A stretch of DNA of 64,000 nt from Desulfurispirillum indicum S5 (GCF_000177635.2 NC_014836.1:229501-293500); one strand, 5' to 3'; counted from the first letter of the stretch, positions 15,158 to 44,650 are shown. The notes: generated from the letters alone by a model not told the origin. Numbers and translations: made by a program.

Positions 15158-16459
15158 TCAGGCGCTCGCATGCGAAAATGGCTTTCGCAGTATGACTCCA
15201 ATGGTCTTTATTATGATAACGAGGTCGAGCCAGAACCCAAAGTGTTTCATGTAAAAGAGATCGTACTCTGATTTGCAGGCTGCACCAGTAACGCTGTTGG
15301 TGTATCCTTGTTCCACCTGTGCCCATCCCGTCAGGCCGGGAAGCACAGCCTGCCTCAGTCTGAACTCTGGAATGACAGAAACATATTTGTAATAGAGCTC
15401 CAGCGCTTCAGGCCGAGGCCCAACAAGGCTCATCTGGCCGCCAAGCACATTCAGTACCTGTGGCAGCTCGTCAATATGATACTTGCGTATGACCCTGCCG
15501 ACGGCAGTAATATACTGTTCGTGGTCACAGTCACCTGGCTGGTGGCCAGAGTCCTTTATGCTGAACATGCTGCGAAATTTCAGCATGGTAAAAACCCTTT
15601 GGCAATGCCCCATGCGTTTTTGGTGAAAGAAGATTCTCCCCCCAGACTCAAACTTTATGGCAGTACCTGCACATATGATGGCAAGAAGCAGGAATGGCAT
15701 CGCCATCAAAGCAATAAGTAGATCGAAGAGTCTTTTCCCTATTCTGTTAAAGGGTTTCCTGGCGACCCTTTCCAACTCGTTACTACTGTTAAATTGCCTG
15801 ATCACTCGCCCCGTGACCATCTCTGCTGCCTCAGCATAGCTGATTACCTGCAAGGCTCTGGCTGCAAGGGCCTTGCTCCACTCAGCAGAAAGTTCGGTTG
15901 TCTGATCCCGAGCTACCCAGGCAACGTTTACAGAAGTGAGTTGTGATGGCGCATTCAGGTACTCCCAGGTTGTTGCCACCTTTGTGTGCAGAGAACAAAG
16001 CGCATGGCTACTCGTGCTTGGGATAACTGCTATGCGCACAGGCAACCGGCAACCTGCTGAATACCAAATGCATAGCCATATCCCCACAAGGAGCAGATTG
16101 AAAAAGAGAGCGAAGGCAGATAATGAAAGAAATGTAAAGCAAATAATGGTTATGGGAATATGCGTCAGAAATACTGCAGAAATGGGTAGGATAAGAGAAG
16201 GTGATCCAGGGTAAAGGCTCAGTTTCTGTAAGACGAAGGCACTTACCAGGCAGCCGAGTATTGAAGCAGCAGCTGCAATAGCCACTTCTGCAGGCACTGT
16301 GCTTATCAGTAAGTGAAAGCAAATTATAATAAACACAGCTCCTGCGTGGTACATCAGGCGCGCAGGCTTATCAAATAATGCACTTCCCCTGTAAATGTCC
16401 GGTTTAATGACCAGCTCTGAAGGAAGTGAAGGAAACCGAAAGTTTTTTGCAGATCTCAT
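15158..16459 (-). CDS. Polyprenyl-phosphate sugar-1-phosphate transferase (WcaJ/WbaP family)
   Basis: A 433-residue membrane enzyme that should transfer a sugar-1-phosphate from a nucleotide sugar to undecaprenyl phosphate, starting a glycan. The N-terminal part has several hydrophobic helices. The C-terminal catalytic domain (about 240-430) has KRLFDL, GRIFFHQKRMG, MLKFRSM, HIDELPQVLNVL, MSLVGPRPE and LPGLTGWAQV. The start codon overlaps the HlyD stop (ATGA), so it is coupled to the type I secretion operon, an unusual place for it. It could prime a glycan for the exported protein or the O-polysaccharide. Substrate unknown. Confidence 0.9.
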   Translation of the reverse strand: MRSAKNFRFPSLPSELVIKPDIYRGSALFDKPARLMYHAGAVFIIICFHLLISTVPAEVAIAAAASILGCLVSAFVLQKLSLYPGSPSLILPISAVFLTHIPITIICFTFLSLSAFALFFNLLLVGIWLCIWYSAGCRLPVRIAVIPSTSSHALCSLHTKVATTWEYLNAPSQLTSVNVAWVARDQTTELSAEWSKALAARALQVISYAEAAEMVTGRVIRQFNSSNELERVARKPFNRIGKRLFDLLIALMAMPFLLLAIICAGTAIKFESGGRIFFHQKRMGHCQRVFTMLKFRSMFSIKDSGHQPGDCDHEQYITAVGRVIRKYHIDELPQVLNVLGGQMSLVGPRPEALELYYKYVSVIPEFRLRQAVLPGLTGWAQVEQGYTNSVTGAACKSEYDLFYMKHFGFWLDLVIIIKTIGVILRKPFSHASA

Positions 16460-17772
16460 TCTTCTTTAAATGAAACAAACAGGCGGTCAAGGAAAGGATC
16501 AATAAGATACTGGAGTAATGTACGCTCGCCGGTCTTTATGACAACCTCGGCAGGAAGACCGGGCACAAGCCGGTTGTTTGCTCCAAGTTTTTGTAATTCT
16601 TCGGGTGATATTGCTATTTTACTGAGGTAGTAAGGCATTCTTGTTTGCTCATCAATAAGCCTGTCCGGTGATACCGCGATCACCTCGCCCTCTATGACAG
16701 GCGTATTCCTTGCGTCAAAGGCACTGAACCGAAGATCGGCCTGCATATCGCGGTGTACTCTGTCTATATCCTGTGGGCTGATTTTTGCCTCGACGATCAA
16801 TTCTGCATGCACTGGGACAATTTCCATTACCGTTTCTCCAGCGCGTACTACACCACCAATCGTATGAGCCGATAGTGAGAGTACAATACCGCTTTCGGGC
16901 GCAAGAACATCTGTGCGCTGCAATATGTCTTTTGCAGCATGATATTGTTCACGCAGGGAGCCGAGCCTGCGCTGGGCATCGCTGATCTGTGCTTCCACAT
17001 CATGGTGAAAGTCCTGTTCAAGTTTTACCAGACTTAAACGCAACTCAGTAATACTGCTTTGCGTGCGTGCAATAGCAGCCAAATCTTCAGAACGGCGGCT
17101 TATGATTTCCTCAAGAGCCCTTTCTTGGTTTAGAAGACTGTTGCGCGGGTAATGGCCATCTTTGGCCAGCTCACGCAGACCAGCAAGCTCCTCTTTCAGC
17201 AGCATGATTTGGCGATCGCGGCTAGCCAGGACATCCCCAAGGCTTTCAATATATTTTTGTTGAGCCTCAATGTTTTCTAAAATAATCTGCTGTTCATTTT
17301 GTAAACTTTTTCTTCGTCGCTCAAACAGCTCTCGTTGCGTTTGAACCAGCTCGACAACCTCCGTATCATCGCTGCTCAGGACCTCCAGTGGGAAAATGAC
17401 ATCTGGCAGCCCGCCCCTTTCGGCCAAAAGTCGCGCATACTGCACCTGCACGCTGATTAGTTCATAACGCGCCGTTGTATACTCAGCTCGGGGTCTCGAA
17501 TCGGCTAAGCGAATCAGAAGCTCGCCTTTTTGAACGAGCTGGTTTTCACGCACGAGGATTTCTTCGACAATTCCACCATAGAGGTGCTGTACCGCCTTCC
17601 GGTTTGTTTCTACGGAGACTACGCCCTCGGCGACAATGCCTTTGCCCAGGGGCGCAGTAATCGCCCAAAGTAAAAAACCCCCAAAACCCAGGCCAATAAG
17701 AAGAAAGCCCGCGATAAGAACGCCTCTTATATTCGTGTTTGGTATTTGCTGTTGCATAGAAGAACCATCCAT
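16456..17772 (-). CDS. HlyD/PrtE-type membrane fusion protein of type I secretion
   Basis: A 438-residue periplasmic adaptor linking the inner-membrane ABC exporter to TolC. There is one N-terminal transmembrane helix (about residues 16-38), then a half-lipoyl domain (VVSVETNRKAVQHLYGG), a long coiled-coil hairpin (about 100-290) and a C-terminal beta-barrel domain ending GERTLLQYLIDP. Length and order match the PrtE/AprE/RsaE group. The gene begins two bases after the exporter stop. An internal ATG five codons in is an alternative start. It should serve the RTX protein at 35194-37983, which lacks an exporter beside it. Confidence 0.93.
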   Translation of the reverse strand: MDGSSMQQQIPNTNIRGVLIAGFLLIGLGFGGFLLWAITAPLGKGIVAEGVVSVETNRKAVQHLYGGIVEEILVRENQLVQKGELLIRLADSRPRAEYTTARYELISVQVQYARLLAERGGLPDVIFPLEVLSSDDTEVVELVQTQRELFERRRKSLQNEQQIILENIEAQQKYIESLGDVLASRDRQIMLLKEELAGLRELAKDGHYPRNSLLNQERALEEIISRRSEDLAAIARTQSSITELRLSLVKLEQDFHHDVEAQISDAQRRLGSLREQYHAAKDILQRTDVLAPESGIVLSLSAHTIGGVVRAGETVMEIVPVHAELIVEAKISPQDIDRVHRDMQADLRFSAFDARNTPVIEGEVIAVSPDRLIDEQTRMPYYLSKIAISPEELQKLGANNRLVPGLPAEVVIKTGERTLLQYLIDPFLDRLFVSFKEE

Positions 17773-17774
17773 AG

Positions 17775-19526
17775 TTAGCGTTGCTCATTCTGGCCAGCGA
17801 GTTGGCCCTGTTGTTTTAATGTCTGCTGGCGTTGCTGCTGAATCCAGCGCAATACCTCGTCTCGCGGGCCAAAAGCTTTCAGTTGACCCTCGGTCAGCAT
17901 CATAAGTTTGTCAACTGTGCTCAGGATGTTGGTCTTATGAGTAATAACGAATATTGTACACTTACGCTGCTTCAGGTACTTGATCGCCTCAACGAGAGCA
18001 GCTTCTCCTACGTCGTCAAGGTTAGAGTTCGGCTCATCAAGAACAATCAGCACTGGTTCCCCATAGATAGCCCTCGCGAGGGCTATGCGCTGTCTTTGCC
18101 CACCGGAAAGAACGACTCCCCCCTCGCCAATGAAGGTATCGTAGCCATCGGGGAATTTCAGAATCATCTCATGCACGCCGGCAGCCTTTGCCGCATTAAC
18201 GACTTTGATGGAGTCTATATCACCGAAACGAGCAATATTTTGTGAGACGGTACCTTCAAGTAACTCGATATCCTGTGGAAGGTATCCAATATAAGGGCCT
18301 AAGAGGATTTTATCCCATTGATGAATTTCAGCCCCATCGAGTCGAATTGAACCTCCAGCAGGAGGCCATGCCCCGACAAGCAGGCGTGAAAGTGTAGATT
18401 TCCCAGAGGCGCTTGGCCCTACTATGCCAACGGTATCACCGGGAAGTACTTCGAAATTTAAGCCCCGTAGTATTTGTGTCCGACTACCTGGGGCAGCAGC
18501 TACAAGATTCGTGGCAGTGATTGAGCCTTTGGGCGCAGGAAGGCTCATGGTCTTGATTTTAGCGGGAAACAGTGCAAAGTGTTCTTCAAGACGCTTAAAC
18601 GCATTTCTTGCGCCCAGGAAATGCTTCCAGGTTCCAATGAGCAGGTCAACTGGTGCCAGAGCTCGGCCCAGCAGAATTGAGCCGGCAATCATCATCCCTG
18701 CAGTGAGCTCTTGTTGAATAACGTAGTAAGCACCTAAGCCCAGAATCAGCGATTGGGCACTGATGCGTACAAATTTTGTTATTGCCTGAATAGTGCCAGC
18801 CCTCTCACTTGCCATTGCCTGCAGGTAAATATGGGTCTCATGCTTTGGTTTCCATTGATTACGCACATTATTGTGCATGCCCATGGCTTCAATAGCCTCG
18901 GCATTGCGGAAGTTCATGTTCGCAAAACCAGAAGCCTCGTTGTAATATTTATTGGATTCTCCCAGTGGTTTCCGGGTTACCCACTCATTCAACAGTGCCA
19001 GTAAAATTAAGATAATTGCAGATACTATGGCAAAAACTCCTAAGGCAGGGTGAAGCATGAAAATAATGATGATATAAATCGGCGCCCACGGAGCATCAAA
19101 AAAAGCAAACAACCCGTTTCCCGTGAGAAACTGACGAACATTCGTTATGTCATTAAACGTGTGTGATGCACGAGTGGATGCACCCCTGAGTGCCCGCTCG
19201 AAAGCAGTATCGAACACACGGTTGCTGATTTGCGCATCCATTTTATTTCCAGCGCGAACCATAGTCTTGCTGCGTACGCCCTCCAGAGCAGACATGACCA
19301 CATAGAGTCCAACTACAATGACAGTAAGCATAAGTAGTGTCGTCTGATTGGAGCTCATTAAAACCCTGTCATATATTTGCAGCATGTAAACAGCTGGAAG
19401 AATCATTAACATGTTGATAATAAAACTGAACACGCCGAGTGAAACGAATGTAGACTTGAACGTATACAACAGGGAGCGTAGTTCTCCCTTTTCGCCCTGG
19501 GCAGATGTATTTATTTGCGAGCTCAA
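17775..19526 (-). CDS. Type I secretion ABC exporter (PrtD/RsaD family)
   Basis: A 583-residue fused permease/ATPase. Six hydrophobic helices span about residues 20-310. The ATPase has Walker A GPSASGKST (about 370), signature LSGGQRQRIALARA (about 470) and Walker B VLIVLDEP. There is no N-terminal C39 peptidase, so substrates with uncleaved C-terminal signals such as RTX proteins are expected. It overlaps the tolC stop by four bases (ATGA) and is followed at once by HlyD. The closest characterised type is the exporter of metalloproteases and Caulobacter S-layer protein. Confidence 0.95.
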   Translation of the reverse strand: MSSQINTSAQGEKGELRSLLYTFKSTFVSLGVFSFIINMLMILPAVYMLQIYDRVLMSSNQTTLLMLTVIVVGLYVVMSALEGVRSKTMVRAGNKMDAQISNRVFDTAFERALRGASTRASHTFNDITNVRQFLTGNGLFAFFDAPWAPIYIIIIFMLHPALGVFAIVSAIILILLALLNEWVTRKPLGESNKYYNEASGFANMNFRNAEAIEAMGMHNNVRNQWKPKHETHIYLQAMASERAGTIQAITKFVRISAQSLILGLGAYYVIQQELTAGMMIAGSILLGRALAPVDLLIGTWKHFLGARNAFKRLEEHFALFPAKIKTMSLPAPKGSITATNLVAAAPGSRTQILRGLNFEVLPGDTVGIVGPSASGKSTLSRLLVGAWPPAGGSIRLDGAEIHQWDKILLGPYIGYLPQDIELLEGTVSQNIARFGDIDSIKVVNAAKAAGVHEMILKFPDGYDTFIGEGGVVLSGGQRQRIALARAIYGEPVLIVLDEPNSNLDDVGEAALVEAIKYLKQRKCTIFVITHKTNILSTVDKLMMLTEGQLKAFGPRDEVLRWIQQQRQQTLKQQGQLAGQNEQR

Positions 19527-20881
19527 TACTCACCTCTCTGAGAATTCGATTCCAAAAAATCATTCATCTGGGCCATATGCTCACCAGTCAACATACCTGC
19601 ATGGAAATACAGAGCCAGTTGCCCAATGATGTAGTCGTACTGTGCCTGGAGCAGCCGGTTGCGATGAGAAAAGAGCGAACGCTTTGCGTACATCACATCA
19701 ACAGGGGTACGGACACCAGCCTCAACGCTTCGTTGCATGGAGATCAGCGACACTTCACTTGCTTCTATTGTCCGCTTGAGCGAAGAAATTCGTGCAGAAG
19801 CCCCCTGGATTTGCAGGTAAGCATCAGTAACTTGTTGCGCCGCTTCGCGAAGCGCCTCGTCAAAGTTGGATCTGGCTCTGCTTTCCTCTGCTTGCGCCTC
19901 CCTGTGGGCAGCGCGTGTACTTCCACCACTATAAAGTGGTACATTCAGCTGCACCGAGGCCCCAAGGACCGTTGCTTTGTCGCGCGGCAGCATATCACTC
20001 GTTTCATCGGTTGTCACATATTGAGCTATTAGGTCTATAGTTGGTGCATACCTTGCTGATGCAACTTTGACACTAGCGCCAGCAATCTCTAGTTCGAGCT
20101 TCTGGTGTAAAACACCCAGGTTTTCCCGGCGAGCAACCTCAAGCCATTCGCCCAAGTCTCTCTGCGGCTGCACGTATTCTCCCGCATGCGCAAGACGTGC
20201 AGGATGAGCCTGTGTGACCCCTGTGATGCGTTCGAACATCGTTTGAGCGATTTTGCGCTGACTACGCGCCTCTACTATGCGGGACTCCACACTTAGGAGC
20301 TCTGAGTACACCTCATTGACATCTGCGATCGTAGCCTGACCCCTGCGCTGCATTGAACGGGTTTGCTGCAGTTGCTGTTCAATGGCTGAATGCTCAGCCT
20401 CCAGCAGTTGTTCGTGATCAAAAGCCGCCAGAAGTTGAAAGTATACCTGCGCTACCCGAACCTTCAGCTCAGCCTCAGCTATTCTCAGTTCGATGTCTCC
20501 ACCATCGGCCTGCAGAGAGATCTGTCGGTAACGATGATAAGACTCAAGATTCAACATTGGCTGTCGTAGGGTCAAACCGTAGCTGCTTGTTTCCTGGTTT
20601 TTATTAAAGTCAGCATCAAGATCCCGTGTTTTTGTAAAACTCGCTCTGCCGTAAAGCTGAGGCAGCAAACCTGCTCGGCCCTGAGCTCGGTAGGTCTGGG
20701 TAGCCTGCTGTTTGAAAATGCTCCCTTGATATCGTGAGTCATTCTCCAGTGCGAGGGAGTAGGCACCCAAAAGATCAATGGTTGCTCTTTTTTTTAAAAC
20801 CTCGCTTGCTGCCAGGTTTCCGGCGTATAGGATCATCAGAATTGACAGGAAAATTTTTGCTGTATTGTGAAGATATGACAT
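19523..20881 (-). CDS. TolC-family outer-membrane channel
   Basis: A 452-residue outer-membrane efflux/secretion protein. A signal peptide (about residues 1-26, ending NLAAS) precedes two repeated coiled-coil halves typical of TolC, with SLALENDSRYQ near the N-terminus and SYGLTLRQP and LNVPLYSGG marking the barrel strands. It is first in the leftward operon tolC, ABC exporter, HlyD, sugar transferase. All junctions overlap or nearly touch, so the four are probably one transcript starting in the 20.9-21.1 kb gap. Confidence 0.93.
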   Translation of the reverse strand: MSYLHNTAKIFLSILMILYAGNLAASEVLKKRATIDLLGAYSLALENDSRYQGSIFKQQATQTYRAQGRAGLLPQLYGRASFTKTRDLDADFNKNQETSSYGLTLRQPMLNLESYHRYRQISLQADGGDIELRIAEAELKVRVAQVYFQLLAAFDHEQLLEAEHSAIEQQLQQTRSMQRRGQATIADVNEVYSELLSVESRIVEARSQRKIAQTMFERITGVTQAHPARLAHAGEYVQPQRDLGEWLEVARRENLGVLHQKLELEIAGASVKVASARYAPTIDLIAQYVTTDETSDMLPRDKATVLGASVQLNVPLYSGGSTRAAHREAQAEESRARSNFDEALREAAQQVTDAYLQIQGASARISSLKRTIEASEVSLISMQRSVEAGVRTPVDVMYAKRSLFSHRNRLLQAQYDYIIGQLALYFHAGMLTGEHMAQMNDFLESNSQRGEY

Positions 20882-33188: not shown

Positions 33189-34274
33189 ATGCCCGTAAGA
33201 CGCCCTGCCTTTTCCCTGATTGTCATCATCCTGCTCATCGCAGGGTGTGGCAGTAAAAGCAGCACAGATCCCATATCACAGAAGCCGGGAACCACCCCGC
33301 CCGACACCCCCGCCCAGCACATTCCGCTGCAGGCAACCATCCAGGGCATAGCCCAGAATCACACCCTGCAAATACAATATAACCAGCACCCCCCCATCCA
33401 CATTGACCACACAGCCAACAACACCCCCTATTTCCTCGGCACCCAGGCCCCCGACACCAGCTATCACATCCAGATAATACAACATCCATGGCAGCAACTT
33501 TGCAGCATACAGAACCCAAGCGGCACCATAACCACCCATAGCCAGCCCGTAATTACCATCACCTGCGCCACCACCAAACTCAACGACACCGGAATACACA
33601 GCTGCGCAACAGCCAGCCAGGCGGATACCACCTGCCCCCAGGCAGCAGCACCCCGCCAGGACGCCGATACCGGACGAGACTTCGCCGCTCGCCAGGGAAC
33701 AATCCTGAAAATCGGCAACGGCAACGCAGGCTTTGACTTCACGAAAATAAGCGCCGATGGAACCCCCCTCCCCCCCAGCAGCCCCACATGGTCCTGCGTA
33801 CTCGACAATCACACCGGCCTCATGTGGGAAAGCAAGAGCCCAGGCCCTGGCCTTCATAACGCGCAGCACACCTACACCTGGTATAACCCCAGTGGATATG
33901 ACGACGGAGGCAACCCCGGAGCAGTGCAAACCAGCCCCCCAAAACCCGAAAACTGCACAAACCACCTCCCGGCCTGTAACACACACGAATACATAATCGC
34001 AGTCAACATCAGCACCCTGTGTGGCTCCCGTGACTGGCGCCTGCCCACACGCGAAGAGCTCCGCTCCATAATTGACTACAGCCAGCATAAAGTCGCCATC
34101 GACACAGACTACTTCCCTGCAACCATGGCAGGCTGGTACTGGAGCGCCAGCCCCAATGCCGACTACCACTACTTCGCCTGGGGCATCAACTTTGGCAACG
34201 CCAACGACTTCACCAACTTCAAGCACATCGCTCACCACGTGCGACTCGTGCGCAGCCACAAGGAGAAGCCATGA
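33189..34274 (+). CDS. DUF1566 lipoprotein
   Basis: A 361-residue predicted lipoprotein with lipobox LIAGC (Cys20). A proline/threonine-rich linker and a small beta domain (about 50-130) precede a DUF1566 domain (about 195-355): DNHTGLMWESK, DWRLPTREELRSIIDY, GWYWSASPN. The last residues overlap the next gene by ATGA. It closes the polysaccharide operon with its small DUF1566 partner, repeating the lipoprotein/partner arrangement at 10.5-15 kb. Function unknown, probably surface recognition or scaffold. Confidence 0.8.
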   Translation: MPVRRPAFSLIVIILLIAGCGSKSSTDPISQKPGTTPPDTPAQHIPLQATIQGIAQNHTLQIQYNQHPPIHIDHTANNTPYFLGTQAPDTSYHIQIIQHPWQQLCSIQNPSGTITTHSQPVITITCATTKLNDTGIHSCATASQADTTCPQAAAPRQDADTGRDFAARQGTILKIGNGNAGFDFTKISADGTPLPPSSPTWSCVLDNHTGLMWESKSPGPGLHNAQHTYTWYNPSGYDDGGNPGAVQTSPPKPENCTNHLPACNTHEYIIAVNISTLCGSRDWRLPTREELRSIIDYSQHKVAIDTDYFPATMAGWYWSASPNADYHYFAWGINFGNANDFTNFKHIAHHVRLVRSHKEKP

Positions 34275-34807
34275 AAGGCAAAATGCCCATAATAGCGACA
34301 CTCGCACTAGTAATTATCAGCATCAGTAGTGCCAGCAGTCGTGCCGCCCACATCTGTCGTGAGACCATTACCCCCACCACACCCGACAGCCAGTTTGTGG
34401 AGCACCACGATGCAACCGTCACCGACACCAGAACCGGCCTCATGTGGAAACGATGCAGTGAAGGCCAGCAATGGGACGGAACAACCTGCACAGGCCAGGC
34501 CATCACCTTTACCTGGCAACAGGCACTGGAGTATGCACAGGCCCATACCCACAGCCAGTACAGTGACTGGCGCGTTCCAAACGTAAAAGAACTCGCGTCA
34601 CTCATGGAAAACGCCTGTACCCAGCCAACCATCAACACCCGAATCTTTCCCGCCACACCCAGTGAACGTTACTGGACATCCAGTCCCGCACCCCGCCGAC
34701 CGGGCGCATCCTGGAATATACGCTTCCTCAGCGGACACAGCTATACCTACGACAACTGGCAACTCAGCCATATACGACTCGTTCGCCCTGGCGCGCAGCA
34801 GCAATGA
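34271..34807 (+). CDS. Secreted DUF1566 protein
   Basis: A 178-residue exported protein. A signal peptide (about residues 1-25) precedes one DUF1566 domain with RTGLMWKRC, SDWRVPNVKELASLME and RYWTSSPAP. AAGGAG lies just upstream of the start. It is the last gene of the long rightward operon and a paralogue of the protein at 14387-14956. Paired cysteines suggest an oxidised, extracytoplasmic fold. Confidence 0.82.
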   Translation: MKGKMPIIATLALVIISISSASSRAAHICRETITPTTPDSQFVEHHDATVTDTRTGLMWKRCSEGQQWDGTTCTGQAITFTWQQALEYAQAHTHSQYSDWRVPNVKELASLMENACTQPTINTRIFPATPSERYWTSSPAPRRPGASWNIRFLSGHSYTYDNWQLSHIRLVRPGAQQQ

Positions 34808-35193: not shown

Positions 35194-37983
35194 ATGAGCG
35201 TTACAACCGCAGAAATTATTGAGCTTTATGTAGCAAGCTTCGGACGCGCACCCCGTAAATCCGAGCTGGAAGCCCTGGAAACTGCATCCGCAGGGAAGAC
35301 CAAATCTGAAGTGGCAGCAGACATGATTGAGAGCTCCGGCTCCTTCGCCTCTGCTGACAACACTGCATTCCTGAACGAAGCATACCAGGCGTTCTTTGGC
35401 CGAGTTGCTGACGCTGAAGGTCTTGCTTTCTGGGGTGCCGCCCTTGAAGCTGGACTGAGCCGTGCTGATCTGATTGCCGAACTGGTAGCTGGTGCTGACA
35501 ACTATCCCGCAGAAGGTGCCAATGCAGCCGAAGCCGCCAAGGATAAGGCAATAGCAGCCAACAAAAAGGCCGTAGCCACGTACTTTGCCGAGTCTGGCAT
35601 TGAAGATGAGGCCCAAGCCTCTGAAGTGCTCGACGGAGTTACCGAAGATCCTGCCACTGTAGACAGTGCCAAGGACGTAATTGACGAGGCCACGCAGGTT
35701 CCAGGTGAGACATTTACACTGGTGTCCGGCGCGGAAGTGGTTGAAGGCACTGCTGGTAACGATACGATCATCGCAGTTACCGATAACCTCGCTTCCAAAC
35801 GCACCCTTGATCAGGGCGACCAGATTGACGGTGGTGAGGGTAACGACGTCCTGAAAGTTGCTTTGGGTGCCAACTTTAACGGCTTTACCGGTGACGGGTA
35901 CCTCAAAAACGTGGAGACCATTGAGCTGACCAATGAGAGCAATTTCGCGCGCACCTTTAATGCTAATGGTATAGAGGGCGTTACAGAGTACGTGGTGAAT
36001 GCCACTACGAAAGACGTTAAGGTAACTAACATTAAAGAGCTTCTTGATGTTATTACGGTCAACGGGCAAAAAGAGGGGACCCTCGACTTCACATACGCTG
36101 CCGCAGCAGTGAGCGGTTCTGACGACGCGCTTACCCTCGCGCTGAATAGCGTAGGTAGTGCCAAAACAACTACTGCCGCTCAGATTAATCTTGCTGTAAG
36201 TATTGCTGGTATCGAAGACCTTTCTTTGGATGTTGCAGGGAATAACTTCGTGAATCTGACCAGCGTTACTGAAGCGAAGACTATTTCCGTACTTGGTTCA
36301 GGGAATGTTGATATTACTGCTGTCGCAGCTGGTGTTACGGCTTTTGATGCCTCAGCGGCAACAGGGACGGTGACAGCAAATCTCGCAGGCGCTGGCACTT
36401 TCACAACCATTATGGGTGGGGCCGGTAAAGACACTATTACTGTAGATGGAACCGAACTCGACATTATCGCAACCCTTGATGGTGGAGAAGGCTATGACGT
36501 TCTGACGATCAATAATGCCACCAGTGGTGCTGCTGATAATACCCTTGCCCTCAATATGCAGAACTTCGAAGAGCTGCGCATTAATGGCGCCGCTACTCAA
36601 GAGCTGACGTTCGCAGCCGCCTCGGTTTCCGGACTTGAGAAAGTAGTGCTCGGAACTATGGGTGTCGGTGGCTCGGTTGTGCTGGCGCAAATGCAGGCAG
36701 AAAATATGACTCTGCAGCTGCAGACCGCTACCGCTGGCTCTGCCACAGTGGGCAAGGCTACTTACGACGGCTATGGCGAGCTTACCATTACTACAGGTGA
36801 TGCTGCGAACGATAAGACGGCCCCACGCGAAACTGAAATAGAGGTTATAAGCAACAATGCCTCTATTGTGAATGTGAACGTAGCCGCACGCACTGCGCTT
36901 AACAGTGATATACTGCTGACAGCTGCAGATCAGCTGACCTTGAACGTGGCAACAGGCAAAGCAAGTGAAGCTATCGGCGTGACCCATGTAAAAGGTGATG
37001 AACTTACTTCTTTTGGTGGCTCGATTAACGCCCAGGTTGCAACTTCCGTAATTATTGACGCTAAAGGCCTGCTGGATGGTGCAACCATTGAGGCTAACCA
37101 GGCTGAGTCTGTTGTTGCCGATGTCGCAGCAGGTGATTTGACGCTTATCACTGGTAAAGTGGAGTCCATTGAAATGAAGGCGACGGGTGCCTTCCAGATT
37201 AATGATGACTCTGACCTTTCTGCTCTGAATTCTTTGGTTCTGACTACAGGCAAGGTATTCACTTTTGAAGATGCGAATGTAAATGGCTTGGCTGAACTGG
37301 CCTATGTTCAGGTAGACGGAAATGGAAGCATGACTTTTGGTAATAATGCAATAGGGGCTGATCAGGAAGGTGTTACGGTCGCGGCAACCGAATTGCTTGG
37401 TGGAATTACGGTTATTGTCGATGATGCAGCCTCAGTTGCGGGTTCTACAGCAGCGGTGTACGGAAGTACTATTGGTAAAAATACCATAGAAATCGGCGCC
37501 CGTGCAGAAGTAGAACTCACAGGTGGTGTAAGCGCCGATGTGTTTACCGTTGACCTTAATGTGAACGTTGATCAAAACATCACTATTACTGGTGGCGCTG
37601 GTAATGACAAGTTCGTCATTGGTAGTACTTACCAGAATAAGAACATTGTAACCATTACAGACTTTAACAGTGGAGATGCATTCCACATTGACGGGACAGA
37701 TAAAATAGCAGCAAGTACTGTTGCTGACACTTATGATTTGAATGACGCTGTTGCCTTCCTCTTGGATGCGGGGATGTCTGGAGCGACTACGAATAACGTA
37801 AGTGTACAGGAGTTTGACGCTGCTGCTGAAGACGTGACAGCCATTTACTATGGTGGTGACACGTACTTCGTGATCGGTAACAGTGATGGCAACTTCGACG
37901 CAGGCGAGGTTCTTCTGAAGTTGCAAGGTGTAACTACGGTAACAGCTGCGCAGGTTACTGCACTGTTCGATCTTACGGTTTAA
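35194..37983 (+). CDS. DUF4214/RTX surface-layer-like protein, type I secretion substrate
   Basis: A 929-residue acidic protein without a signal peptide or cysteine. The first 110 residues hold DUF4214-type repeats (YVASFGRAPRKSELE and YQAFFGRVADAEGLAFWG). The rest is Ala/Thr/Val/Gly-rich beta repeats with calcium-binding RTX nonapeptide motifs: GTAGNDTI, GGEGNDVL, GGAGKDTI, GGEGYDVL and GGAGNDKFVIG near residue 800. The C-terminus ends with hydrophobic residues (ALFDLTV), as in PrtD-type substrates. Composition matches S-layer proteins such as Caulobacter RsaA. GAGAGG seven bases upstream sets the start. The TolC/ABC/HlyD operon at 16-21 kb is the expected exporter. Confidence 0.85.
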   Translation: MSVTTAEIIELYVASFGRAPRKSELEALETASAGKTKSEVAADMIESSGSFASADNTAFLNEAYQAFFGRVADAEGLAFWGAALEAGLSRADLIAELVAGADNYPAEGANAAEAAKDKAIAANKKAVATYFAESGIEDEAQASEVLDGVTEDPATVDSAKDVIDEATQVPGETFTLVSGAEVVEGTAGNDTIIAVTDNLASKRTLDQGDQIDGGEGNDVLKVALGANFNGFTGDGYLKNVETIELTNESNFARTFNANGIEGVTEYVVNATTKDVKVTNIKELLDVITVNGQKEGTLDFTYAAAAVSGSDDALTLALNSVGSAKTTTAAQINLAVSIAGIEDLSLDVAGNNFVNLTSVTEAKTISVLGSGNVDITAVAAGVTAFDASAATGTVTANLAGAGTFTTIMGGAGKDTITVDGTELDIIATLDGGEGYDVLTINNATSGAADNTLALNMQNFEELRINGAATQELTFAAASVSGLEKVVLGTMGVGGSVVLAQMQAENMTLQLQTATAGSATVGKATYDGYGELTITTGDAANDKTAPRETEIEVISNNASIVNVNVAARTALNSDILLTAADQLTLNVATGKASEAIGVTHVKGDELTSFGGSINAQVATSVIIDAKGLLDGATIEANQAESVVADVAAGDLTLITGKVESIEMKATGAFQINDDSDLSALNSLVLTTGKVFTFEDANVNGLAELAYVQVDGNGSMTFGNNAIGADQEGVTVAATELLGGITVIVDDAASVAGSTAAVYGSTIGKNTIEIGARAEVELTGGVSADVFTVDLNVNVDQNITITGGAGNDKFVIGSTYQNKNIVTITDFNSGDAFHIDGTDKIAASTVADTYDLNDAVAFLLDAGMSGATTNNVSVQEFDAAAEDVTAIYYGGDTYFVIGNSDGNFDAGEVLLKLQGVTTVTAAQVTALFDLTV

Positions 37984-38053
37984 GTGTAAATCAAATACAA
38001 GCCGGATAAATGTAGATTTATTGTGTGCTTGTAGTTGATTGGCGCGAATTTGG

Positions 38054-38082
38054 AAAAGCCCCGGCGGCTAGCCGGGGCTTTT
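38054..38082. terminator. Strong bidirectional-type terminator
   Basis: A perfect 12-base-pair stem AAAAGCCCCGGC / GCCGGGGCTTTT with loop GGCTA, 70 bases after the surface-layer stop codon. The A-run and T-run let it work in both directions. It should insulate the highly expressed gene from the SapC-led genes. Confidence 0.92.
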
Positions 38083-38086
38083 CATG

Positions 38087-38092
38087 TATAAT
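38087..38092 (+). promoter_or_regulatory. Perfect -10 box ahead of the SapC gene
   Basis: TATAAT lies 23 bases before the likely SapC start and just after the terminator hairpin. No good -35 box is seen, since that position falls inside the hairpin. Weak promoter candidate. Confidence 0.25.
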
Positions 38093-38115
38093 CCGAAAGT
38101 AATCGGGAGTTGAAG

Positions 38116-38895
38116 TTGTTTGATCTTGTTCCATTAAATGCAAAAAAATATAAGACTTTATCCTGGTCCAAGTTCCAGGATTATAGATTTGCTTCAAAAT
38201 TTAATATTATACCAGTTGTGATAGCAGAGTTGGCTGATGTTATTGCAACTTTGCCTTTGGCTTTTGTAAGATATGCTACTGGTGAGCTTGAGCTGGTAGC
38301 CATAGCAGCACTGAAGAACAATGAAAACTGGTTTATTACACCGGCTGGAAAATGGGTGGGTGGCTATGTGCCTGCGGCACTGAGAAGCTATCCCTTTGGG
38401 CTTATTCGTGTTGCTGACGCGGGTCAGAAAATCTTGGGCATTGATGAGTCTTCAGGGTTAATACATGCCAATCAAGAACATATAGCTTTTTTTGATGATT
38501 CAGGTGAACATGCAGCTGAAGTGAAAAATATAGTACATTTCCTGCAAAAGATAACTGAAAATAAAATTGCGACTGATGCTGCTGTGCAGTCGCTTGATAA
38601 GGCGAACATTATTGAGCCATGGCCACTGGGGATTCAAGAAGGTGATGATATTACTCCCGTTGAAGGGCTGTATAGAATTAATGAAGGTTTCCTGAACAAT
38701 ATAGACGAGCTGCAGTTCTATGAGTTGCGCAAAAAAAATGCACTTGCGCTTGCTTACGCCCAGCTTTTTGCACAAAAACGCATGGAGCTATTACAGCGCG
38801 CGCGAAGCATGTATATAAATCAACGTGCTCATGAACACCTGTTGGCCCAGGATAGTCTCGATTTTGAAATTGGTGATGATACACTGAAGTTTTAG
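38116..38895 (+). CDS. SapC-family protein
   Basis: A 259-residue SapC-like protein (PF07277 type). The family hallmark is the N-terminal VPLNxxxH/Y region, here LVPLNAKKYKTL, then PVVIAELADV, and GKWVGGYVPAALRSYPF. The family is named from the Campylobacter fetus S-layer export locus. Its biochemical role is unclear. The start is TTG 38116, six bases after GGGAG. TTG 38110 is in frame but touches the ribosome site. There is no signal peptide. Placement directly after an S-layer-like gene supports a role in surface-protein biogenesis, perhaps in the cytoplasm. Confidence 0.85.
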   Translation: MFDLVPLNAKKYKTLSWSKFQDYRFASKFNIIPVVIAELADVIATLPLAFVRYATGELELVAIAALKNNENWFITPAGKWVGGYVPAALRSYPFGLIRVADAGQKILGIDESSGLIHANQEHIAFFDDSGEHAAEVKNIVHFLQKITENKIATDAAVQSLDKANIIEPWPLGIQEGDDITPVEGLYRINEGFLNNIDELQFYELRKKNALALAYAQLFAQKRMELLQRARSMYINQRAHEHLLAQDSLDFEIGDDTLKF

Positions 38896-38960
38896 CAGCT
38901 TGCTAAATACCTAAATCAGGCAGGCAACTGAAAAACCAAGATATACAAGGCACCCGCAAA

Positions 38961-39062
38961 ATGAGAAATGAGGCGTACTCTTCGTGCATTGCACGACAAG
39001 TGGCAGCGGGCAATGTCGCTTATGGAGGTTTTTCAGCAGCCGGTTATGGAGTTGCCGCATGA
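38961..39062 (+). CDS. Possible 33-residue coupled peptide
   Basis: The ATG opens a 33-codon frame whose TGA overlaps the methyltransferase start (ATGA), the same coupling used by many genes in this window. AAGG lies ten bases upstream. The peptide begins with a polar part containing one Cys and ends GNVAYGGFSAAGYGVAA. It could be a real small protein, a substrate of the next enzyme, or a translational coupler. No family is recognised and chance cannot be excluded. Confidence 0.3.
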   Translation: MRNEAYSSCIARQVAAGNVAYGGFSAAGYGVAA

Positions 39063-40594
39063 CTACCTGGACCGATGGATATGTCGCAGAAATTGGATAT
39101 TTGTATGGATATTATGGTGAACTGAATCCTCGGCGATGTCAGCTTGCCTTTTTGCACAGTGGGCTGCAGCCTCCGCAGATATACAACGCATGTGAACTGG
39201 GCTTTGGGCAGGGGGTCAGTATTAACCTGCACGGCGCAGCCAGTGGTATTCCGTGGTTTGGAACGGACTTTAATCCTGCTCAGGTATCCTTTGCGCAGGA
39301 TCTTGCCGCCCAAAGTGGGGCCGCTGTGCACCTTGCCGATGATACTTTTGCTGACTATGTAAGGCGTGATGGGCTGCCCTTGTTTGATTATATCGGTTTG
39401 CATGGAATCTGGAGCTGGATTAATGAGAGCAATCGCCAGGTTATTGTTGATTTCATCCGCTGCAAGCTCAAACCGGGTGGCATTGTTTATATAAGTTATA
39501 ACTCGCAGCCGGGCTGGGCAGCCATGATTCCATGGCGTGAGCTCCTTACGACCCATGCAAACCGCATGGGTGCTCCAGGTCTTCCCATTGCAGCGCGTAT
39601 TGATCAGGCCATGGGTTTTGCCAGGGATCTCATGGCTGCGAACCCTCTGTATGCTCAGGCGAACCCTATTGTTGCAAAGCGTTTTGAAGACATGGGGAAG
39701 CAGGATCGTCATTACCTTGCCCACGAATATTTTAACCGTGACTGGCTCCCCATGAGTGTCATGCAACTCTCAGCGCAGCTCAAAGAAGCCAGGCTTGATT
39801 ATGCCTGTTCTGCCCACTATCTCGATCATATTGATGCCCTTAACCTCACTTCTGAACAGCAGCAGCTGCTTTCGAAAATCCATGATCCTATAATGAAGGA
39901 AATGGTGCGTGACTTCTGTATGAATCAGCAATTTCGTCGTGACTACTGGAGCAAAGGCTTGCGTCGTCTTGCACCATTGGAACAGGCTGCTGCACTGCGC
40001 GAGCACGTGGTGATTCTTACTCAGCATCCCCAGGATATCAGCCTGAAAATTAAGGGTGCTCTGGGTGAGGCAGTGATGAATGAAAGTGTTTATGGCCCTA
40101 TACTGGAATATCTTGGTGACTGGAAGCCTCGGAGTATTCAGCAGATTGAACAGGCCCTTGCCAGCAGAAATATCACGCTGATCCAGATAGTTCAGGCCGT
40201 ATTGGTTCTGAGCGGAAGCGGAAGCCTGGCAGCATGCCAGGATGAAAAAACGATTGAGACAGCTCAAGTATATACAGACAGGCTCAACCAGCACATTTGT
40301 GATATGGCTCGCAGTCGCAGTGAAATTTCGTTTCTTGCCAGTCCGGTTATCGGTGGCGGTGTCCCTGTGAATCGTATTCATCAGTTGTTTTTACTTGCGG
40401 TAAGGCTGGGGCATACCGAACCTCAGCAATGGGCGCAGTATGCCTGGCAGATACTTGGCTCCCAGGGGCAGAAGCTTGTCAAGGAGGGGAAAACACTGGA
40501 AAGTACCGAGGATAATCTTGCCGAGCTCTCCAGAAATGCTCAGGAGTTCGCTGAAAAGCGCCTCCCGGTGCTCAAAGCTTTGGCTGTAGGCTAA
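39059..40594 (+). CDS. SAM methyltransferase with regulatory domain, possible protein-lysine methyltransferase
   Basis: A 511-residue protein. The N-terminal class I methyltransferase fold has motif I CELGFGQGVS (about 44-53), GTDFNPAQ, and HGIWSWINE. A central segment (about 215-300) matches the MethyTransf_Reg type domain (PF10119), and a helical C-terminal part follows. From memory, this three-part layout is that of the Rickettsia OmpB lysine methyltransferases PKMT1/PKMT2. The start at 39059 has GGAG seven bases upstream; an earlier in-frame start (38984) reads through unrelated sequence. Beside a SapC gene and S-layer gene, the surface protein is a plausible substrate (inference). Confidence 0.8.
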   Translation: MTTWTDGYVAEIGYLYGYYGELNPRRCQLAFLHSGLQPPQIYNACELGFGQGVSINLHGAASGIPWFGTDFNPAQVSFAQDLAAQSGAAVHLADDTFADYVRRDGLPLFDYIGLHGIWSWINESNRQVIVDFIRCKLKPGGIVYISYNSQPGWAAMIPWRELLTTHANRMGAPGLPIAARIDQAMGFARDLMAANPLYAQANPIVAKRFEDMGKQDRHYLAHEYFNRDWLPMSVMQLSAQLKEARLDYACSAHYLDHIDALNLTSEQQQLLSKIHDPIMKEMVRDFCMNQQFRRDYWSKGLRRLAPLEQAAALREHVVILTQHPQDISLKIKGALGEAVMNESVYGPILEYLGDWKPRSIQQIEQALASRNITLIQIVQAVLVLSGSGSLAACQDEKTIETAQVYTDRLNQHICDMARSRSEISFLASPVIGGGVPVNRIHQLFLLAVRLGHTEPQQWAQYAWQILGSQGQKLVKEGKTLESTEDNLAELSRNAQEFAEKRLPVLKALAVG

Positions 40595-40606
40595 GCTGTC
40601 AGTTCG

Positions 40607-41380
40607 ATGGTGTACTCGGTAAAAAACTTTATCCCTCTGCAGCAGCTCTGGCAAGATGACCTGCTTCGGCAGACACTGCTGCGTCAGGCCCAGGGTGATC
40701 CGTACCTGTTTATTCTGTTGGCCAGTCGCAGTGCCCGGCTGAGTATGGAGAGCCATCTTGCTCAACTCCATCCAGGCAGCAGTGCTGATGATGCAGTGGC
40801 AAGGCTCATGGGTAAAGGATTCAGCCCTTCGCAAATCACCACAAGCTTTGCCCAAAGCTGGCTTTTGCAGGATACAGTCATCTATCTGCCCACGACATCA
40901 CTGTGGCGCAGTGCCTGGTCTGGTGCCCTGTTGGCCTTTGTGCCTATAGTCTTTGGCTGGTACTGGATACTTACCCATATGCAGCTGACCCCCAGCAGTC
41001 TGGGTGCTTTTTTTACCACCACCGGAGCCCTTGCCATACCCACCTTGCTGCTGGCCTCTGGTATTGGCAGACTCTGGCGGCGAGCGTTCGCCGGTACACC
41101 AGCTCAGCTGCACCCTCAGTTTGCCCGCTGCGCTGTCAAGTGTGCCCGGAATTATCAGCCAGATCAGGAGTATATGCCTGACGTCTTCACTGGCTTCGCC
41201 CAGGCGCCTGAGTCGATCACCGAGACGGTGGCGTTGCACGATGCGGCTACGAAAGAGCAGATTATGGAAAACCACATCATAAATCTGAAAAATCAGCTGG
41301 CAATATGCTACACTGCCAGGCGAGTGTACGCGGCAAAATTGCTGGCTGAGCTTACTGGTGTCTATCACACTAAGGAGTAG
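40607..41380 (+). CDS. Unknown membrane protein with DUF6447-like tail
   Basis: A 257-residue protein not assigned to a family. The soluble N-terminal part (about 1-100) is helical. Two hydrophobic helices lie at about 103-123 and 128-150. A cytoplasmic tail ends LKNQLAICYTARRVYAAKLL, which closely resembles LQQQLAIAQTARAAYAQALQ in the next gene's product. It lies 12 bases after the methyltransferase and five bases before the small gene, so the three are probably one transcript. The shared tail may be a pairing or docking element. Confidence 0.6.
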   Translation: MVYSVKNFIPLQQLWQDDLLRQTLLRQAQGDPYLFILLASRSARLSMESHLAQLHPGSSADDAVARLMGKGFSPSQITTSFAQSWLLQDTVIYLPTTSLWRSAWSGALLAFVPIVFGWYWILTHMQLTPSSLGAFFTTTGALAIPTLLLASGIGRLWRRAFAGTPAQLHPQFARCAVKCARNYQPDQEYMPDVFTGFAQAPESITETVALHDAATKEQIMENHIINLKNQLAICYTARRVYAAKLLAELTGVYHTKE

Positions 41381-41385
41381 TATAC

Positions 41386-41580
41386 ATGGCAGAAAAACAG
41401 ACCATTACCATTGACGGCAAAAATTACAATCTCGATGAACTCAGTGAAGGGGCACGTGACCAGATCACCAACCTGCGGGTTACCGATCAGCAGATGGCTC
41501 AGCTGCAGCAGCAGCTTGCTATTGCCCAGACTGCTCGCGCAGCTTACGCGCAGGCCCTGCAAAAAGAGCTGGATAAGTAA
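41386..41580 (+). CDS. Small DUF6447-like protein
   Basis: A 64-residue soluble protein. A short beta segment (TITIDGKNYNLDELS) is followed by a helix rich in Gln and Ala, probably coiled coil (DQQMAQLQQQLAIAQTARAA). This order matches DUF6447-type small proteins as I recall them; function unknown. It lies five bases after the membrane protein, whose tail resembles this helix, and is the last gene of the SapC group. Confidence 0.65.
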   Translation: MAEKQTITIDGKNYNLDELSEGARDQITNLRVTDQQMAQLQQQLAIAQTARAAYAQALQKELDK

Positions 41581-42192: not shown

Positions 42193-42480
42193 TCAAAGAT
42201 CTACCACTTCAAAAGCCGTCTTGGCATCAAAAATGTTGACTGCGTAGCGGGAGAGTTCTTCCTCAGTTGCCTGGGCAATGCGCTCATGCACCGCTGGTGG
42301 TACAGAACCAAAGCGGCGCTCAATCTGGGTATACAGGATTTGAGCCTGGCCCTTGAGCATCCCCTCTTGTATCCCCTCTTGTCTGCCCTTGAGTATCCCT
42401 CTTGCTTCCCACTTCTCAATGACTGCGCTCATAACAGCCTCCTTGTGCTCAGGTATTTCATCCAGTGAGCGTTGTATTGG
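42193..42480 (-). pseudogene. Rpn-family C-terminal fragment (copy 3)
   Basis: Only the last ~95 residues remain, from IQRSLDEIPEHKEAVMSAV to the stop, nearly identical to the ends of the two copies to the right. The linker repeat differs (GILKGRQEGIQEGMLKG instead of ARGE repeats). The catalytic domain is missing. The 3' flank also differs from the other two copies. Confidence 0.85.
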
Positions 42481-42498
42481 CATGTGGGTACTATTCAA

Positions 42499-42692
42499 GC
42501 ATCCCCCGCAACCAAGGTTGACTGTGAAGATGTATTCTGGGTACCTGCTGACGTGGCTCCCCCTCCCCCCACCGGGTTTGGGTTGGTTCCATCAACCAGA
42601 ACAGTCTCCAGATTCTCACCGTGAGTGCTGCTTTGGGGCAGTATTCCAACAGTTGCCCCCCCCCGCAAGTAGGTGGGGGGGAGAGATACTCC
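42499..42692. other. Spacer between Rpn copies 3 and 2
   Basis: Non-coding. The right part (about 42640-42692) has a run of ten C, then AAGTAGGT, then a run of seven G, and then ACTCCCTACAGAGA. The same pattern recurs in the spacer at 43603-43672. The left part is unrelated to anything else in the window. Confidence 0.6.
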
Positions 42693-43602
42693 CTACAGAG
42701 AAAGGTCCACCACTTCAAAAGCCGTCTTGGCATCAAAAATGTTGATGGCGTAGCGGGAGAGCTCTTCCTCAGTTGCCTGGGCAATGCGCTCATGTACCGC
42801 TGGTGGTACAGAACCAAAGCGGCGCTCAATCTGGGTATACAGGATTTGGGCCTGGCCCTTATGCACCCCTCTTGCTTCCCCTCTTGCTTCCCATTTCTCA
42901 ATGACTGCGCTCATAACAGCCTCCTTGTGCTCAGGTATTTCATCCAGTGAGCGTTGTATTGCTTGATCGTCGATGTCGCTATTGACGCTTATGGCGTAGG
43001 TCAGGAACTGATGGAGAAGTTCCAGTGTAGTGCACTTGTCATGATTCGCGTTGTTAATCAGCAGCATAACGGTAGGCAGGATTTCCCTGAGACTTTTCCG
43101 GCGACCGTGGTGCAGAATCATCAAGAATGCACTGGTATCAGGCCGGTATATCTGCCGCCGCTGATCCATCTGGGACACATCCCACAGCACGTAGTCAAAG
43201 ACCGGTGTGTAGGGTGCCATGGACTCAGGATCGCTGACATCAAGCAAGTCAATAATCTCCTTGCGACGCCACCTGTCCTCACCATGGTACAGCACCAGCG
43301 GTATAATGGGCGGCAGCTTGGTGGCCTGTGGGTTCTCCCGAAGGTACTTCTGCCACTGGGCACTCATGTACTTGAGAAGCTGCAGACTACACCAGTCATC
43401 AGGGTAACTCTTGTGTTCAAACAGCATGTAGATGAACGCCTGCTTGTCACTATCCCTGAAGTTGGCCAGGAATACCCGGTCACTGTAGGTTTTTCTCAGG
43501 TCATCATCGACATAGGTCGTTTCAATACGCTGCAGGGTGGAAAAGTCCAAAACCTCAGCAATGTGCGCTGGCATTTCATGCTGGAGCAAATCCTGGGCAA
43601 CA
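42693..43602 (-). pseudogene. Rpn-family nuclease, 5'-truncated (copy 2)
   Basis: Almost identical to copy 1 from VAQDLLQHEMPAH to the end, but the first ~20 codons including the start are replaced by the G/C-run spacer. Any product would need the TTG at 43589 or the ATG four codons later. The catalytic pieces SDRVF and FEHKS remain. It has two ARGE units where copy 1 has three. Probably a non-functional tandem duplicate, though a shortened protein cannot be excluded. Confidence 0.75.
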
Positions 43603-43672
43603 CCGGCAGTTGCCCCCCCCAGGAAGTCTGTGTGTGTGGGGGGAGGGGGGGGAGGGGCACTCCCTACAGAGA
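43603..43672. repeat. G/C-run spacer between Rpn copies 2 and 1
   Basis: CAGTTGCCCCCCCC, then AAGTCTGTGTGTGTGG, runs of six and eight G, and ACTCCCTACAGAGA. The C-run and G-runs could pair. It matches the spacer at about 42640-42692 in order and in its edges, so both came from the same duplication unit. Confidence 0.65.
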
Positions 43673-44650
43673 GAGTTCCACCACTTCAAAAGCCGTCTTG
43701 GCATCAAAAATGTTAATGGCGTAGCGGGAGAGCTCTTCCTCAGTTGCCTGGGCAATGCGCTTATGTACCGCTGGTGGTACAGAACCAAAGCGGCGCTCAA
43801 TCTGGGTATACAGGATTTGGGCCTGGCCCTTATGCACCCCTCTTGCTTCCCCTCTTGCTTCCCCTCTTGCTTCCCATTTCTCAATGACTGCGCTCATAAC
43901 AGCCTCCTTGTGCTCAGGTATTTCATCCAGCGAGCGTTGTATTGCTTGATCGTCGATGTCGCTATTGACGCTTACGGCGTAGGTCAGGAACTGATGGAGA
44001 AGTTCCAGTGTAGTGCACTTGTCATGATTCGCGTTGTTAATCAGCAGCATAACGGTAGGCAGGATTTCCCTGAGACTTTTCCGGCGACCGTGGTGCAGGA
44101 TCATCAAGAATGCACTGGTATCAGACCGGTATATCTGCCGCCGCTGATCCATCTGGGACACATCCCACAGCACGTAGTCAAAAACCGGTGTGTAGGGTGC
44201 CATGGACTCAGGATCGCTGACATCAAGCAAGTCAATAATCTCCTTGCGACGCCACCTGTCCTCACCATGGTACAGCACCAGCGGTATAATGGGCGGCAGC
44301 TTGGTGGCCTGAGGGTTCTCCCGAAGGTACTTCTGCCACTGGGCACTCATATACTTGAGAAGCTGCAGACTACACCAGTCATCAGGGTAACTCTTGTGTT
44401 CAAACAGCATGTAGATGAATGCCTGCTTGTCACTATCCCTGAAGTTGGCCAGGAATACCCGGTCACTGTAGGTTTTTCTCAGGTCATCATCGACATAGGT
44501 CGTTTCAATGCGCTGCAGGGTGGAAAAGTCCAAAGCCTCAGCAATGTGCGCTGGCATTTCATGCTGGAGCAAATCCTGGGCAACATTCGCGTGCTCCAGA
44601 ACAGCCTGTACAAATGTATCGTGAGGATTGTTCACTTTGTCGTTACTCAT
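43664..44650 (-). CDS. Rpn-family recombination-promoting nuclease / YhgA-like protein
   Basis: A 328-residue intact member of the Rpn (PF04754-like) family, formerly called putative transposases. The PD-(D/E)XK nuclease core has Asp in YSDRVF (about 60) and Glu-X-Lys in FEHKS (about 84-87). PPIIPLVLYHGEDRW follows. The C-terminal part has IQRSLDEIPEHKE, then a short-unit linker with three ARGE repeats, then KGQAQILYTQIERRFG. Family members are DNA endonucleases linked to recA-independent recombination, and some act in phage defence. Truncated copies follow directly downstream. No clear ribosome site is seen. Confidence 0.88.
   Translation of the reverse strand: MSNDKVNNPHDTFVQAVLEHANVAQDLLQHEMPAHIAEALDFSTLQRIETTYVDDDLRKTYSDRVFLANFRDSDKQAFIYMLFEHKSYPDDWCSLQLLKYMSAQWQKYLRENPQATKLPPIIPLVLYHGEDRWRRKEIIDLLDVSDPESMAPYTPVFDYVLWDVSQMDQRRQIYRSDTSAFLMILHHGRRKSLREILPTVMLLINNANHDKCTTLELLHQFLTYAVSVNSDIDDQAIQRSLDEIPEHKEAVMSAVIEKWEARGEARGEARGVHKGQAQILYTQIERRFGSVPPAVHKRIAQATEEELSRYAINIFDAKTAFEVVELSL

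Follow-up and report, generated by a model that had tools for sequence, protein, structure and literature searches.

A PKMT-type methyltransferase beside the gene of an RTX/DUF4214 surface protein in Desulfurispirillum indicum: a candidate route of surface-coat modification

Background

The closest described relatives of the enzyme analyzed here are the lysine methyltransferases PKMT1 and PKMT2 of Rickettsia (PDB 5dnk and 5doo), whose target is OmpB, and KmtA of Acinetobacter sp. Tol 5, whose target is AtaA. KmtA belongs to cluster A of the family (OM PKMT A) and is dedicated to a large surface protein, as we propose for the enzyme in our locus; the paper on KmtA makes no mention of S-layers, RTX proteins, PF10119, gene neighbors or operons (PMC11784438). 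Our search of a limited set of literature returned no paper on S-layers and lysine methylation, nor on RTX proteins, type I secretion and lysine methylation together; for S-layers and methylated lysine it brought up one review, on archaea. RTX proteins are unfolded without calcium and exit the cell by type I secretion. HlyC and kindred RTX-toxin acyltransferases are encoded beside an RTX protein and act on its lysines while it is still in the cytosol, ahead of type I export. The Caulobacter S-layer is built of RsaA, an RTX-type surface protein that is exported through a type I secretion system (T1SS), and to our knowledge no lysine methyltransferase has been reported for it.

We analyzed a stretch of 64,000 nucleotides from the genome of Desulfurispirillum indicum S5 (GCF_000177635.2 NC_014836.1:229501-293500), hereafter the window, to whose first letter all positions refer unless stated otherwise. 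A sequence-only reading had proposed that a module with a dedicated protein-lysine methyltransferase follows the gene of a self-assembling surface protein, and that such methylation is little described. The notion that enzymes of this kind were undescribed outside Rickettsia has to be given up, as KmtA and AtaA were published in 2024 (PMC11784438). Lysine methylation of the surface protein by the neighboring enzyme stands as a candidate.

Results

Gene organization of the module

The surface protein is encoded on the + strand at 35194-37983 and is followed on that strand by a perfect 13-bp hairpin (38053-38083), a likely partial terminator according to RNA folding (-28.2 kcal/mol and z -3.5 for the region 38040-38100), which is absent from the list of a generic terminator scan. 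As the sequence-only reading described, four genes follow on the + strand. The first encodes a SapC family protein (38116-38895; PF07277, 179.5 bits versus a curated cut-off of 28.9, E 9e-53), with a TTG start behind GGAG around 30 bp past the hairpin and an alternative TTG at 38110. The scan listed no promoter-like site on the same strand between hairpin and SapC, which makes read-through the likely route. The second is the methyltransferase gene (39059-40594; 511 amino acids), with PF10119 at 39704-39952. Its start is most likely the ATG at 39059, which lies behind GGAG and opens the motif M(S/T)xWxxGYV that begins the homologues too; a GTG in the same frame precedes it at 38984. The third gene (40607-41380), 12 bp further on, encodes a membrane protein with two hydrophobic stretches and without any Pfam match, whose C-terminal tail (residues 218-249) matches a DUF6447 profile with 18.7 bits. 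The fourth, after another 5 bp, encodes a DUF6447 protein of 64 amino acids (41386-41580; PF20045, 30.1 bits versus a curated cut-off of 27). The last two genes have in common the motif QLAxxxTARxxYAxxLxxEL.

The probable exporter is a type I secretion system encoded on the - strand, composed of an HlyD-type adaptor (16456-17772), a permease/ATPase (17775-19526) and a TolC-like outer membrane protein (19523-20881), all recognized with profiles from annotated plasmid homologues. Upstream, the window also has a large block of glycosyltransferase and export genes, and two Lcl_C domain proteins just 5' of the surface-protein gene (33189-34807). Straight after the module, at 42193-44650, a YhgA-like/Rpn transposase-family gene is repeated in tandem, in partly broken copies.

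The methyltransferase is of the PKMT kind and lies outside the Rickettsia branch

The methyltransferase matches PF10119 in Pfam with an E value of 5e-32 (111 bits) and is the only match in the 2.93-Mb source genome; the domain is also present in PKMT1 and PKMT2, as the sequence-only reading had led us to expect. The similarity covers nearly the whole length and goes beyond the SAM fold, and the refuting outcome that this reading had named for the sequence comparison did not occur. A plain sequence search of the PDB returned PKMT2 (E 3e-16) and PKMT1 (E 1.4e-14) as the only relevant matches, far beyond chance, and the profile of 26 relatives matched PKMT1 over positions 11-497 (E 1e-42). Over its full length the protein shows the architecture of the OM PKMT family, in which a class I SAM methyltransferase is joined to PF10119 and further C-terminal domains. 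Its AlphaFold model, built from ten sequences (pLDDT 88, pTM 0.87), has chains of PKMT1 and PKMT2 as its best eight fold matches in the PDB (TM 0.66-0.69); the next is the protein-lysine methyltransferase Rv2067c (TM 0.50), after which there is a long drop. The PKMT1 residues D102 and H146, which contact AdoMet, correspond to D70 and H115 here and are invariant in 26 sequences and nearly so in 96 (PKMT1 is numbered as in PMC11784438, from which the PDB chain differs by one).

The proposed likeness to the Rickettsia OmpB methyltransferases is therefore borne out for architecture, fold and AdoMet residues; it fails for the branch of the family and for the residues of target affinity. In a tree of 96 sequences, PKMT1, PKMT2 and 19 sequences split from the window enzyme and 74 others, both branches with a support of 100. 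The PKMT1 residues L103 and I130, which set the affinity for OmpB (PMC11784438), are Phe71 and Phe97 in our enzyme; Phe occupies these positions in nearly all the 75 window-side sequences, whereas the Rickettsia branch has mostly Leu and Ile. The tree and these two residues place the enzyme within the PKMT kind and outside the Rickettsia type (OM PKMT R).

Within the family, indirect evidence suggests that the enzyme belongs to the KmtA-like subfamily, OM PKMT A. It shares 50% identity with a homologue from Rhodobacterales, which are found only in cluster A, and KmtA too is without the L103 and I130 of PKMT1 (PMC11784438). KmtA, which we compared by its published description, has a like architecture and a similar size (516 amino acids versus 511; PMC11784438). 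As its N-terminus shows no evident signal peptide, the window enzyme should be cytosolic.

The neighboring surface protein

In Pfam, the surface protein matches DUF4214 (33 bits) and, at borderline level, RTX (23 bits). Its sole sequence match in the PDB, a weak one (E 7.5e-4), is 6p5t, a chain named 'S-layer protein'. Of its 929 amino acids, 129 are Asp or Glu and 32 are Lys; Cys is absent. The RTX/DUF4214 make-up (borderline for RTX), the absence of Cys and the T1SS genes in the region are those of a type-I-exported S-layer protein, which would likely be self-assembling and may build a layer. In its RTX-type surface protein, its type I system and the weak 6p5t match, the window resembles the RsaA system.

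The source genome encodes no other real DUF4214 protein. A second weak DUF4214 match was considered as a second substrate and rejected, as it sits in a TraN-like protein. The target of KmtA is a trimeric autotransporter, whereas the one proposed here is an RTX protein that would leave by type I secretion; a trimeric autotransporter as the target was rejected as well, there being no YadA anchor in the genome.

A protein so rich in acidic residues, with only 32 lysines, may be modified elsewhere, for example at carboxyl groups or at the N-terminus, and the presence of Phe at both of the positions that set OmpB affinity in PKMT1 would fit such a non-lysine target. We consider this improbable, as the AdoMet-contact residues are unchanged and KmtA methylates lysines without L103 and I130 (PMC11784438).

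Recurrent pairing with RTX/DUF4214 genes

A single-protein scan of genome contigs matched only Caulobacter. We therefore widened the survey to a broader genome search and gathered the flanking DNA, mostly 20 kb, of some 90 relatives of the methyltransferase from genomes and plasmids. Among 398 Pseudomonadota genomes, PF10119 occurs in 42 and DUF6447 in 3; in all 3 DUF6447 genomes of the random sample, a gene for DUF4214, SapC or the methyltransferase is next door. Of the 75 loci outside the Rickettsia branch, 12 have an RTX/DUF4214 gene on the same strand as their immediate upstream neighbor; of the 19 loci within the branch, none does. The spacing is 15-132 bp, or 467 bp where a DUF6447 gene lies between. 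Six complete relatives reach 50% identity or more and have their upstream side covered; 5 of them show this arrangement (L050, L089, L012, L011 and L013), and the sixth (L108) has SapC directly downstream instead. In the closest partial relative (59% identity; L129 1-7592), the DUF4214 surface protein is encoded one gene further up and a TPR-sulfotransferase fusion lies between it and the methyltransferase, which hints at a second coat modification.

One genome carries two RTX-methyltransferase pairs approximately 13 kb apart. Three loci (L118, L119 and L120) have the order methyltransferase, SapC and type I secretion genes, a Ruegeria plasmid has the order RTX, methyltransferase, DUF6447 and T1SS, and a plasmid of R. 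rubrum holds all component families. Genes for SapC, DUF6447 and T1SS recur in the same loci on independent replicons, and the co-occurrence that the sequence-only reading suggested surveying is thus seen elsewhere, RTX/DUF4214 proteins and T1SS genes included.

Our statistics on these frequencies account neither for common descent nor for the selection of loci by similarity and are guides only: at least one of RTX/DUF4214, SapC and DUF6447 occurs within 2.5 kb in 24 of the 75 loci outside the Rickettsia branch and in none of the 19 loci within it (P-value 0.0025, Fisher test); the upstream RTX gene alone does not differ significantly between the branches (P-value 0.12, Fisher test); and 12 upstream neighbors in 75 loci have a probability of 1e-10 to 2e-7 at an assumed chance of 1.2 to 2.4%. 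Because the upstream RTX gene alone gave no significant difference, we relied on the combined comparison and on that between near and far surroundings. In loci outside the Rickettsia branch, RTX/DUF4214 genes reach 7.8 per 100 kb near the enzyme versus 2.4 far from it, and SapC genes 3.2 versus 0.2, densities to be read with the same caution.

The pairing is not general. Around two thirds of the relatives outside the Rickettsia branch have no RTX, DUF4214, SapC or DUF6447 gene within 2.5 kb, and some lie in other settings, such as glycosyltransferase operons in Azospirillum and a type VI operon in Aureimonas. Two Azospirillum plasmids (L049 and L099) show a 4-bp overlap between a GT4 glycosyltransferase gene and that of the PF10119 methyltransferase; the operon opens with genes for a calcium-binding protein and a very large glycosyltransferase. 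An Aureimonas plasmid (L100 10001-12275) has the gene of a distant PF10119 methyltransferase (28%) flanked by tssG and a protein kinase gene, within an operon for type VI secretion. The partner proteins are poor in lysine throughout (11-35 Lys).

Glycosyltransferase genes near many relatives, among them the overlapping GT4 gene of Azospirillum, the large glycosyltransferase and export block of the window and the sulfotransferase of L129 would all suit an enzyme that methylates a sugar or another non-protein group, carried either by the surface protein's glycan or by a polysaccharide of the cell surface. This reading is unlikely in our judgment. In the closest relatives the partner is the RTX protein itself, in many cases without an intervening glycosyltransferase gene, and every characterized relative of full architecture (PKMT1, PKMT2 and KmtA) is a protein-lysine methyltransferase (PMC11784438).

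SapC and DUF6447 in other settings

In a sister genus (G001; L163 6860-19800), the gene of a 3,195-residue DUF5649 repeat protein is followed by SapC, TolC-type and HlyD-type genes, and there is no methyltransferase. This setting suggests a role for SapC in export or assembly and not in methylation. In another genome (G002), a SapC gene lies beside a flagellin-like gene and points away from it (L164 8145-10082), and there is also a lone DUF6447 gene (L005 14073-14267). SapC in Caulobacter adjoins a cupin-like gene, which may be another use of the family. The source genome has a second SapC family gene (G000:C1:2247335-2247982).

Signs of mobility

The module region shows signs of transfer. The methyltransferase occurs in no other of the 51 genomes in a sample of the phylum, and its relatives are found in Pseudomonadota. 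The GC content is 0.41 for SapC and 0.50 for the surface gene and the enzyme, versus about 0.59 for nearby housekeeping genes. Besides chromosomes, the RTX/DUF4214-methyltransferase pair is found in distant bacteria on plasmids, and contigs with a viral classification carry it too: a terminase gene lies approximately 3 kb from it in L145, an endolysin and a tail gene lie beside it in L146, and phage tail and lysozyme genes are also present on the R. rhizoryzae plasmid L011. Overall, in the IMG/VR contigs L144-L148 and in L011, the pair lies beside phage genes (terminase, endolysin, tail or Sak4-like), and it is possible that it is lysogenic-conversion cargo. The surface protein and SapC of the window have no relatives among the viral contigs, and DUF6447 gave no match to phage by tblastn.

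Shared travel on plasmids and prophages might in itself bring the two genes together, and the enzyme could then be a protein-lysine methyltransferase with one or more other envelope proteins as its main target. The signs of transfer and the many relatives that stand alone agree with this, as does the action of Rickettsia PKMTs on several outer membrane proteins (PMC11784438). We nevertheless find it rather unlikely: the RTX/DUF4214 gene directly upstream in the closest relatives forms with the enzyme gene what looks like a dedicated pair, present twice as a unit in one genome, and KmtA is highly specific for AtaA (PMC11784438).

Discussion

With moderate confidence, we favor a surface-coat cassette in which the PKMT-type enzyme N-methylates lysines of the neighboring RTX/DUF4214 protein before type I export. 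The surface protein would be made unfolded in the low-calcium cytosol, where the enzyme would put multiple N-methyl groups on its lysines; the methylated protein would then be exported through the type I system at 16456-20881, and calcium would fold it into the surface layer. SapC and DUF6447 would act as accessory factors, and read-through of the hairpin would keep the modifying proteins low relative to the surface protein. Methylation before export is the simplest model by analogy with the acylation by HlyC, which resembles it in logic only, the enzyme fold being unrelated and the group acyl, not methyl.

This model draws on the near-full-length match to PKMT1, the matches to PKMT folds and the kept AdoMet residues. 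It is further supported by the recurrent upstream RTX/DUF4214 gene, the two pairs in one genome and the recurrence of SapC, DUF6447 and T1SS genes, as well as by the presence of the pair on prophage-like contigs, the sole real DUF4214 protein of the genome and the lack of a trimeric-autotransporter anchor. Several observations count against it: most relatives are without such neighbors, the partners have few lysines, SapC and the hairpin separate the substrate and enzyme genes in the window, and some relatives are coupled to glycosyltransferases or lie inside a type VI operon.

More tentatively, and at somewhat less than even chances, the cassette may be a mobile one that travels across phyla via plasmids and prophages, its dedicated KmtA-like enzyme methylating many RTX/DUF4214 lysines in the cytosol before export and thereby tuning how the coat assembles, its charge or how it is recognized.

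Conclusions

The enzyme kind is known from PKMT1, PKMT2 and KmtA; its pairing with an RTX surface coat points to a little-studied modification route. If this is true, type-I-exported RTX surface proteins would be a third class of partners, which would extend the modification to the S-layer-like coats of free-living bacteria. The genetics would be simple, as a single enzyme gene adjoins a single gene for the candidate substrate, and the pair is present in tractable laboratory strains, such as Ruegeria sp. TM1040 and Rhodospirillum rubrum ATCC 11170. The prophage copies raise the question of whether phages may use the methyltransferase to alter the surface of their hosts.
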